Assembly: GCA_027625145.1 (NCBI GenBank)
Contig: JAQBXK010000003.1
Location: 1-64,000, forward strand
Reading direction: 5' to 3'
DNA: 64,000 bases
Source of the DNA: Pseudomonadota bacterium
Lineage (GTDB): Bacteria > Pseudomonadota > Alphaproteobacteria > Puniceispirillales > Marisalimonadaceae
Positions 5,573 through 33,319 of the stretch are shown here, one piece after another. Positions within the stretch are counted from its first letter, which is position 1. Each line of letters starts with the position of its first letter. The notes under the pieces are model-generated. The model saw only the letters and a list, made by a program, of their open reading frames with translations, was not told where the DNA came from and searched no databases. A program made the translations under genes and the position numbers.

Positions 5573-5713
5573 TTAGTCAACATTTCTTTATATTTAAATT
5601 AATACATTCATTGAAAGTAATAATATTAATATAATTGCTCTAAAACTACAATTTTATTTCAAAAAATTAAATTATTTTTTAATATAATAATAAAGGTAAG
5701 GAAAAACAAGCAT

Positions 5714-6676
5714 TTGGAAGAAATACAAAAAAACTATTCCTGGATTATTAGCGATGGTACAAAAGGAATGGAAAATCAATCTATTGCTTTAGCAAAAATA
5801 TTAAATACTAATTATGAAATAATTGTATTTAAGCCTCCTTATTTGCTTAAAAAATTTCCATTATTAGGAACTGTTATTCCAAGATCAATAATAAAAATTG
5901 ATATAGATAAAACATCTTTACCTAAATTTATAATCACTACTGGTCGAAGAATGGCTGGAATATCACTTTTTATTAAAAAAAATTTTAAACATCCTATCAA
6001 AAACATTCAGATTCAAGATCCAAAAATACCATATAAATATTTTGACTTATTATTAATTCCTGAACATGATAACATTGTTGGTAAAAATATTATCAATACA
6101 AAAGGTGCATTATCTTTTATAGATAATAATGAAATAAAAAGAATAGATTTACCAATACTAGAAAATATAAAAAACAAAAAAAAGACTATAATATTAGCAT
6201 TAATTGGTGGGAATAATAAAAGATATAAGCCTAATAATACAAATTATTATAACTTAGGTTTAGATATAATAAAAGCCTGCCAAAGAGTAAATGGTAAATT
6301 AATTATTTCAACTTCAAGACGCACACCAGTCATAGCTGCCAAAATCTTACATTCAATGCTAAAAAAATATAATGTTGATTATTATTTTTTCTCAGGCACA
6401 GGTTACAATCCATATCCAAGCATGATCAAATTAGCAAATTTTATAATTGTAACTAGCGACAGTGTTAATATGATTTCTGAAACAGCTAGCTTAGATACCC
6501 CTTTATTTGTAGCATATTTAAATAAAGAAAAAGGAAAGATAAGTAATTTTCTGGAAAACCTAGAAGATCTTATGGTAACAAAAAAATTTCATGGAGAATT
6601 ATTTCCTTATAATAAAGTTAAGCTAAACACGAATAATGAAACTGCTCTAAAAATCGATAAGTTTTTTTGCTCCTAA
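5714..6676 (+). CDS. Mitochondrial-fission ELM1 family protein
   Basis: This 320-residue protein matches the ELM1/DUF1022 family by its opening SWIISDGTKGMENQSIALAK and by the C-terminal glycosyltransferase-B-like portion (ALIGGNNKRY, ISTSRRTPV, ANFIIVTSDSVNMISETASL). Bacterial members are common in alphaproteobacteria and their reaction is not settled; the fold suggests a nucleotide-sugar-dependent transferase. I choose the TTG at 5714 because the conserved N-terminal motif lies within 15 residues of it and no ATG precedes it. A GGTAAGGA ribosome site sits about 11 bases upstream. Its last 30 bases overlap the convergent selO gene. Confidence 0.85.
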   Translation: MEEIQKNYSWIISDGTKGMENQSIALAKILNTNYEIIVFKPPYLLKKFPLLGTVIPRSIIKIDIDKTSLPKFIITTGRRMAGISLFIKKNFKHPIKNIQIQDPKIPYKYFDLLLIPEHDNIVGKNIINTKGALSFIDNNEIKRIDLPILENIKNKKKTIILALIGGNNKRYKPNNTNYYNLGLDIIKACQRVNGKLIISTSRRTPVIAAKILHSMLKKYNVDYYFFSGTGYNPYPSMIKLANFIIVTSDSVNMISETASLDTPLFVAYLNKEKGKISNFLENLEDLMVTKKFHGELFPYNKVKLNTNNETALKIDKFFCS

Positions 6677-30177: not shown

Positions 30178-31089
30178 TTAAGGCCATAATACCATAGGGG
30201 GCAAACTCATTAATACAGCTTCTGTATTACCTCCAGTTTTTAAACCAAAAATTGTTCCTCTGTCATATAACAAATTAAACTCAACATACCTGCCTCTTTT
30301 TATTAACTGATTTTTTCTATCTAATTCATCAAATTTTCTATTAATTCGTTTATTAATAATATCTACATAAGAATGTAAAAATGTTTTACCAACATCCTTT
30401 ACAAATGAAAAATCTTTATCCCAGTTATTATTATAAAGGTAATCGAAAAATATTCCACCAACACCTCTGGTCTCTTGTCTATGGGGCAAATAAAAATATT
30501 CATCACACCATTTTTTAAATTTAGGATAATATGTTTTGTTATATTTATTACAACTTTCTTTAAAACTATTATGAAAAATATGGGACATATCTTTATCTTC
30601 AAATATTGGAGTTAGATCTCCACCTCCTCCAAACCAAATTTTTTTATCATTACCTTCGCCAGTAATAAGAAATCTAGTATTCATATGAGCAGCAGGTATA
30701 AATGGATTACACATATGAGAAACAACAGAAATTCCTGTTGCCCAAAATTTACCATTCTTTTCAGCACCAGGAATTTGATTTCTAAATTCTTTAGAAAATT
30801 CTCCATAAACTATGGAAATATTTACACCAACCTTTTCAAAAACTTGGCCTTTCATTACAGAAATAGTTCCGCCTCCACCACCATTTCTATCCCATTTTTT
30901 CTTTTTAAAAACTATCTTTTCTTTTTCTTTACTAAATTCATTTTCAATTTTCTCAAATGAACTACAAATTTCGTCACGAAGATTTTCAAACCAATTACTT
31001 GTTAATTTTTTTCTATTATTTATTAACTCTTCATCGCCTTCTGATTTTTGAAGATATAACTTTTCAATCATTTCTTTTTTTATTGACAT
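30178..31089 (-). CDS. hemF: Oxygen-dependent coproporphyrinogen III oxidase
   Basis: HemF converts coproporphyrinogen III to protoporphyrinogen IX with O2. The 303-residue protein has the family landmarks: WDRNGGGGGTISVMKGQVFEKVGVNISIVYGE, NPFIPAAHMNTRFL, WFGGGGDLTPIFE, the YLPHRQETRGVGGIFFDYL signature and the C-terminal RGRYVEFNLLYDRGTIFGLKTGGNTEAVLMSLPP. It starts 12 bases after the CCA-transferase gene on the same strand, so it is likely the last gene of a nudix-DUF6111-pcnB-hemF transcript. Confidence 0.96.
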   Translation of the reverse strand: MSIKKEMIEKLYLQKSEGDEELINNRKKLTSNWFENLRDEICSSFEKIENEFSKEKEKIVFKKKKWDRNGGGGGTISVMKGQVFEKVGVNISIVYGEFSKEFRNQIPGAEKNGKFWATGISVVSHMCNPFIPAAHMNTRFLITGEGNDKKIWFGGGGDLTPIFEDKDMSHIFHNSFKESCNKYNKTYYPKFKKWCDEYFYLPHRQETRGVGGIFFDYLYNNNWDKDFSFVKDVGKTFLHSYVDIINKRINRKFDELDRKNQLIKRGRYVEFNLLYDRGTIFGLKTGGNTEAVLMSLPPMVLWP

Positions 31090-31101
31090 GTTTTATAATT
31101 T

Positions 31102-32436
31102 CTATTTAAAATTTATTTTAAAAAAATCTTGGATTTCATACAAAGAAGAGCCAAAATTATTATTAACCCAATATTCTTCAGCTTTAAACAATAATAATCT
31201 TATCTCATTATAATCACTTACTTTACTCAATTCTAAGATATGATTTCTATTAAATGGGCATTTTGGCAAATAAGTATCTAAAACATTTATTTTTTTTAAA
31301 TCCTCATAAGGAAGGATATGGAACAACCCTAATTTACACCAACTAATTGGAATTTTTTCATTTTTATAAATTGATTTATTAAAAAAAAATACCCTATTTT
31401 TCATTTTCCACAAAATTTTAATGATTTCGATTTTTTTAGATTTATTAGTTATATTTTTAAAATTTTTAATATCCATAGGACTGTATATGTACTCGATTTG
31501 TTTTAAAAAATTATAGTATTTCAATGTTTTTTTTGAAAATTCTAATCTTAAATATGCTGTTTGCAATTGATTAAAATCATATAAATGAGGTATAAAAATT
31601 GATAATAAATTTAGTTTTGAATTATCAATGACATCTGATCCAAAAGATTTAAGATACTTTAGAATCTTAAAATTTTTTATTTTGAATCCTTTGTGTCCTG
31701 TTTCATTTTCTTTAATATTTTTTGAAAACAAAATATATTTATCTAATGATAATTTTTGTATCATAGATAAACTCAATTCGAATTTTTTGTTATTTAATAT
31801 TTTTGCTAATTCATCTTTCATTCTTTTATTTGATAATAAATTAATATTATCTAGTTTTAATAAAATATTTTTAATGAAAGTATTCGAAATTTTTTTATTT
31901 GGAAATAATGAATAAAAACGACAAAATCTAATTACTCTAAGATAATCCTCTTCACACCTTTTTATAGGATCCCCAATAAATCTTAATTTTCTATTTTTTA
32001 TGTCATCAAGACCATTAAATGGATCAAATAAGTTCCCCAAACTATCTAAATAAAGTGAATTTACTGTAAAATCTCTCCTACTGGCATCCAATTCTATTTT
32101 ATCTGTTTGCTCTACAAAGGCTTGCCTGCCATATGAAAATAAGTCATTTCTTAAACTAGTAATTTGATATTCTTTATTATTTAAAATCAAAGAAACTGTT
32201 CCGTAATCAATATTTCTTGTAATTATTTTGATTTGTATTTTATTGATGCTTTTTATAAAAAGATTAATATCAATATTTATAGCAAAATCGATATCTTTGA
32301 TTTCTCTCTTTAGAAAATAGTCTCTAATTGCCCCTCCAACAATCCATATTTTTGAATTAGAAATACTAGCTAATTCAAATATTTCAATTACGTTGGGTTC
32401 TTTTAGAAAATAATTTAATAAACAGGGATTAAAAAT
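31102..32436 (-). CDS. CCA tRNA nucleotidyltransferase / poly(A) polymerase family, apparent AUU start
   Basis: This class II nucleotidyltransferase adds CCA to tRNA or A-tails to RNA. Counting from the proposed start, the catalytic motif is IWIVGGAIRDYF (residues 30-41) with DID at 48-50; RNIDYGTVSLIL and the later DASRRDFTVNSLYLD, DLKN-like and RVIRFCRFYS motifs follow. A frame opened at the TTG at 32190 would lack the catalytic aspartates, so the gene must start upstream. No ATG, GTG or TTG occurs in frame before the catalytic motif; the frame opens directly after TAA with ATT at 32436, with AAAGGAA eight bases upstream. This gives 444 residues. Whether it acts as CCA-adding enzyme or poly(A) polymerase is not decided. 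Confidence 0.85.
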   Translation of the reverse strand: MFNPCLLNYFLKEPNVIEIFELASISNSKIWIVGGAIRDYFLKREIKDIDFAINIDINLFIKSINKIQIKIITRNIDYGTVSLILNNKEYQITSLRNDLFSYGRQAFVEQTDKIELDASRRDFTVNSLYLDSLGNLFDPFNGLDDIKNRKLRFIGDPIKRCEEDYLRVIRFCRFYSLFPNKKISNTFIKNILLKLDNINLLSNKRMKDELAKILNNKKFELSLSMIQKLSLDKYILFSKNIKENETGHKGFKIKNFKILKYLKSFGSDVIDNSKLNLLSIFIPHLYDFNQLQTAYLRLEFSKKTLKYYNFLKQIEYIYSPMDIKNFKNITNKSKKIEIIKILWKMKNRVFFFNKSIYKNEKIPISWCKLGLFHILPYEDLKKINVLDTYLPKCPFNRNHILELSKVSDYNEIRLLLFKAEEYWVNNNFGSSLYEIQDFFKINFK

Positions 32437-32450
32437 TTAAAAGTTCCTTT
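32434..32450 (-). promoter_or_regulatory. Ribosome site and AUU initiation codon of the CCA-transferase gene
   Basis: On the minus strand AAAGGAA (32450-32444) is followed by CTTTTA, part of an in-frame TAA, and ATT at 32436-32434. Spacing from GGA to ATT is 8 bases, ideal for initiation. E. coli pcnB, a homologue of this family, is known to start at AUU, as does infC. Confidence 0.65.
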
Positions 32451-32456
32451 TGAATT

Positions 32457-32711
32457 TTATTTAGAGAATTGACCATCAATAACCTTACCATTTTGAATCA
32501 AAGGGGGCTTATAGCTATAAGAAGGCGTTGCTGCATTATTCTCTAATAATAAAAAGGATGAAAAAATAATAAAAATAAATGCTACTAAACTTATAATTGA
32601 GGCAATAAAAACTGAATTTTTATAAGTTAGTTTTTGCAGTATATATTTTGTTAAAAAGAAAATAGCTATTGCAAACAAGCTAGCTAAAAAAATTATCAAA
32701 TATCGTCGCAT
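32457..32711 (-). CDS. DUF6111-like small membrane protein
   Basis: This 84-residue protein has two hydrophobic helices (IIFLASLFAIAIFFLTKYIL and SVFIASIISLVAFIFIIFSSFLLL) and a soluble tail ending PPLIQNGKVIDGQFSK. The tail pattern and the place between a CoA pyrophosphatase and a CCA transferase match the alphaproteobacterial DUF6111 family; function is unknown. Its start overlaps the nudix gene by 16 bases and its stop lies 20 bases before the AUU start of the next gene. Confidence 0.7.
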   Translation of the reverse strand: MRRYLIIFLASLFAIAIFFLTKYILQKLTYKNSVFIASIISLVAFIFIIFSSFLLLENNAATPSYSYKPPLIQNGKVIDGQFSK

Positions 32712-33319
32712 GGTGGAAACTCCCTAAAACCTAAACCCGCAGAAATTGTTACAAGTACTCTAGCAGTAAGACCCCAAATATTTTCATTATTATAATTTAT
32801 TCTCCATGTCATAGCCATGCTAGATTTAATTGGCGGCTTTTCTCTAAGATGATATTTAGGAGATAATAACAAGGCAGACTTAGGGCAAAATATTTTTTCA
32901 ACTTCTATTGGATTTGGACAGATTAACGTCTCCCAATTTACCTGTAATTTCATCAAAGCAATAAATGGAGTTACAGCATAACCTGTTCCAGTATAAAATT
33001 TAGGCAACTCTCCAATTATATCGTAGTTACTTTCAGAAAGATTTATCTCTTCTTCAGTTTCCCTAATAGCAGTTTCCAATAAATTTTTATCATGCAGCTC
33101 TTTTCTTCCTCCAGGAAAAGCTACTTGACCAGCATGTTTTCTTAAATTATTTTTTCTTTGAGTAATTAAAATGTTACTTTCTTTCTTATTTTCATTGTTA
33201 ATAAAAATAACCAAAACGCTAGATTCGATATATTCATCAACTGAACGCAATGTATCTCCAGCGTTTTTTACATTTCTTACACATTCTTCTAATTTTTGTT
33301 TAGATATAAGGGTTTCCAA
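32696..33319 (-). CDS. NudL-like CoA pyrophosphatase (Nudix hydrolase)
   Basis: This 207-residue Nudix hydrolase has the box GGRKELHDKNLLETAIRETEEEINL (GX5EX7REUXEEXGU pattern, with one change at the Gly before the last hydrophobic residue) preceded by NLRKHAGQVAFPGG, the UPF0035 feature of CoA pyrophosphatases. FYTGTGYAVTPFIAL follows. It would cleave CoA or acyl-CoA derivatives. It starts a minus-strand run with DUF6111, the CCA transferase and hemF, and is divergent from the TSUP gene. Confidence 0.87.
   Translation of the reverse strand: METLISKQKLEECVRNVKNAGDTLRSVDEYIESSVLVIFINNENKKESNILITQRKNNLRKHAGQVAFPGGRKELHDKNLLETAIRETEEEINLSESNYDIIGELPKFYTGTGYAVTPFIALMKLQVNWETLICPNPIEVEKIFCPKSALLLSPKYHLREKPPIKSSMAMTWRINYNNENIWGLTARVLVTISAGLGFREFPPCDDI

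Follow-up and report, generated by a model that had tools for sequence, protein, structure and literature searches.

Initiation factor 3 (IF3) discriminates against AUU-type start codons, and infC is the classic gene with a non-NTG start (AUU or AUA; NTG denotes ATG, GTG or TTG) subject to this discrimination. To our knowledge, conserved AUU or AUA starts are known in only a handful of genes. E. coli pcnB begins with AUU (Binns and Masters 2002, as cited in PMC9764084 and PMC13009471), and this start is cited as keeping poly(A) polymerase I (PAP I) low (PMC9764084). In S. aureus reporters, AUU and AUA starts yielded about 10% of AUG output, and S. aureus cvfC1 (AUU) and ccpN (AUA), together with B. 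subtilis ccpN, carry conserved non-canonical starts that are directed by a Shine-Dalgarno (SD) sequence (PMC13009471). Streptomyces sigR starts with GTC and is repressed by IF3 (PMC5472188), and elevated IF3 levels inhibit translation from non-canonical start codons (PMC2268962).

We analysed a window of 64,000 nt from a marine SAR116-type bacterium, whose nearest relatives among named genomes belong to SAR116, and found in it a cca gene, encoding a class II tRNA nucleotidyltransferase of the CCA-adding type, with a putative AUU start. Our main reading, to which we give a probability of roughly 0.78, is that this CCA-type enzyme has an SD-positioned AUU start (AUA in many relatives) and that IF3 limits its translation to a low level. 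Like pcnB, the gene belongs to the class II nucleotidyltransferase superfamily, has an AUU start and is translated at a rate thought to be held low. However, E. coli has a separate cca in addition to pcnB, whose product is a poly(A) polymerase and whose ribosome-binding site is poor, whereas SAR116 cca is the only superfamily gene in its genome, is of the CCA type, has a good SD and probably acquired its start inside SAR116. With infC, which begins with ATA in these genomes, it shares a non-NTG start and the SD-to-start spacing; the infC product, IF3, regulates its own gene, whereas on cca it would act in trans. The genes cvfC1 and ccpN are unrelated to it and have extended SDs, whereas the cca SD is ordinary (AAAGG or GAGG). 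The sigR start is likewise conserved and non-canonical and limits a protein, as we propose for cca, but its codon is GTC, its product is a sigma factor and its limiting effect was shown experimentally.

Judged by these comparisons, SAR116 cca adds to the genes with conserved weak starts, under a type of control that is already known. The lineage concerned is one branch of marine SAR116 bacteria. The case spans two genera and is independent of pcnB, in the same superfamily, which suggests that weak start codons are a recurrent way to keep template-independent RNA polymerases scarce. Our literature search found no non-canonical start on a CCA-adding enzyme, a result that is not proof of absence.

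The cca reading frame and its surroundings

The cca gene occupies 31102–32436 on the minus strand (444 codons from ATT, stop included). Its frame opens with ATT TTT AAT CCC straight after an in-frame TAA (32439–32437), so that the proposed start codon, ATT (AUU), at 32434–32436 is the first codon past that stop. No ATG, GTG or TTG occurs in the frame before the catalytic motifs VGGAIRD...DIDFA; the first is a TTG at 32188–32190, 82 codons in. The original prediction had described the frame in these terms and had expected automatic callers to truncate the gene at this TTG, and it was right on each count: ATG/GTG/TTG start rules return an open reading frame (ORF) of 362 amino acids that lacks the VGGAIRD...DIDF catalytic core. 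In this genome, common start rules would therefore strip the gene of 82 codons and, with them, of its active site, an annotation error that the same search for NTG-less frames could reveal in further cases.

The SD, AAAGG, lies at 32446–32450, with a GG-to-ATT spacing of 9 nt. This is the usual value on the same contig, where ATG genes with a recognisable SD mostly have distances of 7–10 nt (mode 8–9). The AAAGGAA that had been noted upstream is present, at a separation from ATT of 7 nt rather than eight. RNA folding around the start returned weak structures (-2 to -10 kcal/mol), none of which is common to the relatives, and we therefore claim no conserved mRNA structure.

The neighbouring genes are also on the minus strand. 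Directly downstream lies hemF, encoding coproporphyrinogen III oxidase (30178–31089; PF01218, 1.6e-98), and directly upstream a gene for a DUF6111-like small membrane protein (32457–32711), whose match to PF19606 (8e-5, 23.3 bits) falls just under the cut-off of 24.1. The stop of the DUF6111-like gene is 20 nt from the cca ATT, and the same DUF6111 C-terminal motif is found ahead of cca in relatives. Upstream of it lies a NUDIX hydrolase gene (32696–33319; PF00293, 4.5e-12), which has a TTG start; its first in-frame ATG comes only at codon 130.

We surveyed the 117 kb contig for ORFs with homologue support, filtering out overlapping shadow ORFs; of about 106 such ORFs, cca alone lacks an NTG near its conserved N-terminus. 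The ORF at 5630–6673 (plus strand) also begins late, but its codon 28 is a TTG at a position that is plausible for a start. This estimate of rarity covers the one contig and infC. As a positive control, infC of this genome (G000:C74) has an ATA start behind a GGAG-type SD, at the same AAAGG+10 spacing, and ATA behind an SD is found in all infC genes of the order that could be read (loci L081–L110).

Conservation of the start region in two genera

We aligned the 5′ ends of 31 cca orthologues, from genera g1 (n = 2) and g2 (n = 29), on the invariant W of WIVGG. ATT stands 30 codons ahead of this W in both g1 species, one of which is a sister species (G001, locus L031) whose enzyme is 89% identical in amino acid sequence. 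In g2 the next codon slot (slot 2) is ATT in 19 of 29 species and ATA in the other 10, with positions 1 and 2 invariant, and the GG of an AAAGG- or GAGG-type SD lies 9–11 nt ahead of it. In the preceding codon (slot 1: ATT, ATA, GTT, AAT, AAA) none of the three positions is constant, so that the g2 start is more likely slot 2; the two slots are adjacent, either could serve, and the exact g2 start codon is not fixed. Read by parsimony on the tree, slot 2 underwent three or more ATT/ATA switches and none to ATG. The original prediction had looked to the 5′ ends of orthologues for a conserved SD and non-NTG codon, and both were found there.

These counts also bear on whether an NTG was misread as ATT in sequencing or assembly. 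The source is a draft assembly of 83 contigs, but the same ATT occurs in the separate genome of the sister species and a non-NTG codon, ATT or ATA, in the 29 g2 orthologues. The ATT is therefore not an assembly error, and the read-level error that would have undone the prediction has a negligible probability.

Before the motif, 22 of the 31 orthologues have no NTG at all, and three have one only 1–6 codons ahead of the motif, too late for a start. The remaining candidates are ATG codons at codon 10 in six g2 species, which lack an SD and are replaced by ATT or CTG in close siblings. As far as these alignments tell, none of the 31 orthologues has a credible NTG start.

The TTG at 32190 is the sole NTG-type start near the 5′ end, and together with the codon-10 ATGs it would favour translation from an internal NTG behind an untranslated upstream stretch. 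However, starting at TTG would delete the VGG..RD..DxDF catalytic core and yet keep the RRD and EDYLR motifs. Slots 3–30 have a pS of 0.142 and a pN of 0.048 in ten close species pairs, and WIVGGAIRD, which a TTG start would lose, is invariant across the aligned orthologues. By these measures the stretch ahead of TTG 32190 evolves as coding sequence under purifying selection, and an internal start at this or another NTG is very unlikely.

The closeness of the upstream gene also invites an account in which cca is made as a fusion with the DUF6111 product, by ribosomes that read through the DUF6111 stop codon or shift frame. The two genes are only 20 nt apart, and in some g2 species (L015, L016 and L023) they lie in one frame with a single stop between them. 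However, their relative frame varies: the frames differ in the present genome (G000), one or two in-frame stops intervene in g2, and the SD and ATT/ATA are kept although the relative frame changes. We consider such a fusion extremely improbable. Initiation at the ATT or ATA itself agrees with the features that mark a non-NTG start, all of which appear in the sequences: no in-frame NTG, a normal SD distance and conservation in relatives.

The enzyme and its putative limitation by IF3

The cca product contains a PolyA_pol head domain (Pfam PF01743, 1e-26, 94 bits against a cut-off of 23) with all the class II head-domain motifs (VGGAIRD, DIDF, SRRDFTVN and EEDYLRVIRF). Among solved structures it ranked closest to human TRNT1 (1.4e-32), followed by bacterial CCA-adding enzymes, with E. 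coli PAP far below (1.4e-11). It shares the head-domain motifs of TRNT1 and bacterial Cca but differs from them in its start codon and in its divergent C-terminal half, which has no significant PDB sequence match past about residue 245. Among NCBIfam models it scored 133 bits for CCA (NF009814) and 87 bits for pcnB (TIGR01942), neither above its cut-off; the curated PcnB thresholds were missed widely (87 of 305.65 bits for TIGR01942, 50 of 702 bits for NF008634). An AlphaFold model from a six-row alignment had a mean pLDDT of 34 and was set aside. By sequence similarity, the product of 31102–32436 resembles a CCA-adding-type enzyme, which repairs tRNA 3′ ends, rather than poly(A) polymerase I.

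The gene is the single PF01743 gene in its genome, which thus has no separate cca beside a pcnB, and relatives in the order have at most one full-length copy each, one genome having a contig-end fragment in addition. All 30 tRNA genes examined in this genome with ARAGORN end in an encoded CCA. Sole-gene status alone is consequently no proof of CCA addition, and it is the similarity that makes the argument. The kinship with pcnB put forward in the original prediction holds for the superfamily and not for the gene; with a single class II gene that is CCA-adding-like, the case is a parallel to pcnB in another branch of the superfamily.

We propose that fMet-tRNA initiates the cca mRNA at AUU, or at AUA in many relatives, positioned by the good SD, and that IF3, by discriminating against these codons, would keep cca translation low. 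A shortage of IF3 relative to 30S subunits would raise cca translation in parallel with that of the ATA-start infC. A low output could be afforded because the tRNA genes encode CCA, so that CCA addition would be needed for the repair of ends only and a scarce enzyme would do; scarcity may also avert the mis-tailing of RNA. The weak cca start is likely to serve for low-level translation under limitation by IF3. The original suggestion that such a start keeps the enzyme scarce is plausible, and more so because the examined tRNA genes encode CCA. Sampled ATG-start relatives encode CCA as well, so that encoded CCA is permissive only and does not account for the altered start codon.

A further step would be to see infC and cca as a small set of genes that respond to IF3, with free IF3 governing its own synthesis as well as the capacity for tRNA 3′-end repair. 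We regard this extension as tentative and rather doubtful. If it holds, tRNA repair would track the balance of ribosomes to IF3, and the infC/pcnB device of E. coli would have been recruited independently on the same enzyme superfamily.

Origin of the weak start among wider relatives

Across the class, all 62 readable cca loci have an NTG start (ATG in range in 57, GTG or TTG only in 5); 21 of these loci have a GC content of 0.40 or less, and eight further loci were unreadable by motif. In the sister genera the start is ATG (g3) or probably GTG (g4), and in other families of the order it is ATG (f2 and f3) or mostly ATG or TTG (f4). The cca tree places g1 and g2 together (84/70), beside g3 and g4 (100/99). 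Because NTG starts prevail across the class and in the sister genera, the trait points to an origin inside the SAR116 family and not from pcnB. Most simply, it arose once, in the common ancestor of g1 and g2, and the non-NTG start of cca appears convergent with that of pcnB. The original prediction had allowed that a limiting start was either kept on this enzyme family or had arisen again, and these distributions fit the second and not the first.

They also bear on an account in which ribosomes do start at the AUU but reach it by termination-reinitiation from DUF6111, which would relax the choice of start codon; the weak codon would then be tolerated rather than act as a control device. The 20-nt gap past the DUF6111 stop and the conserved gene order favour reinitiation, and AT-rich genomes may drift toward ATT and ATA. 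However, the other contig genes (about 106), many of them near an upstream stop, retain NTG, the 21 AT-rich alphaproteobacterial cca genes have ATG, and in E. coli extra IF3 inhibits reinitiation too (PMC2268962). We consider mere tolerance unlikely and retain limitation by IF3 as the main reading.

In two f4 loci (L055 in G088 and L058 in G087), GGAGG-AAAAAAC-ATA stands ahead of the conserved cca N-terminus with no in-frame ATG; a few codons before the ATA there is a TTG. This is possibly a second origin of an ATA start.

Seven alphaproteobacterial genomes of 0.9–1.7 Mb (G165 and G276 of f69, G145 and G262 of f49, G106, G183 and G236), of which five have a completeness of 96% or more, have no PolyA_pol gene; CCA addition may possibly have been lost in them.

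In g3 (L041–L048 and L050) and g4 (L049), about ten species, the cca frame is only about 241–276 amino acids long; it covers the head and neck and keeps every catalytic motif, while the body and tail are missing. In the loci checked (L041 and L049), hemF directly follows the short frame. The product would be a class II nucleotidyltransferase that is either minimal or in decay. Short PolyA_pol frames of 236–265 amino acids also occur in unrelated alphaproteobacteria (L161 in G184, L211 in G136, and genomes G288, G285 and G251); next to L161 and L211 the genes are unrelated and, by eye, pilin-like.
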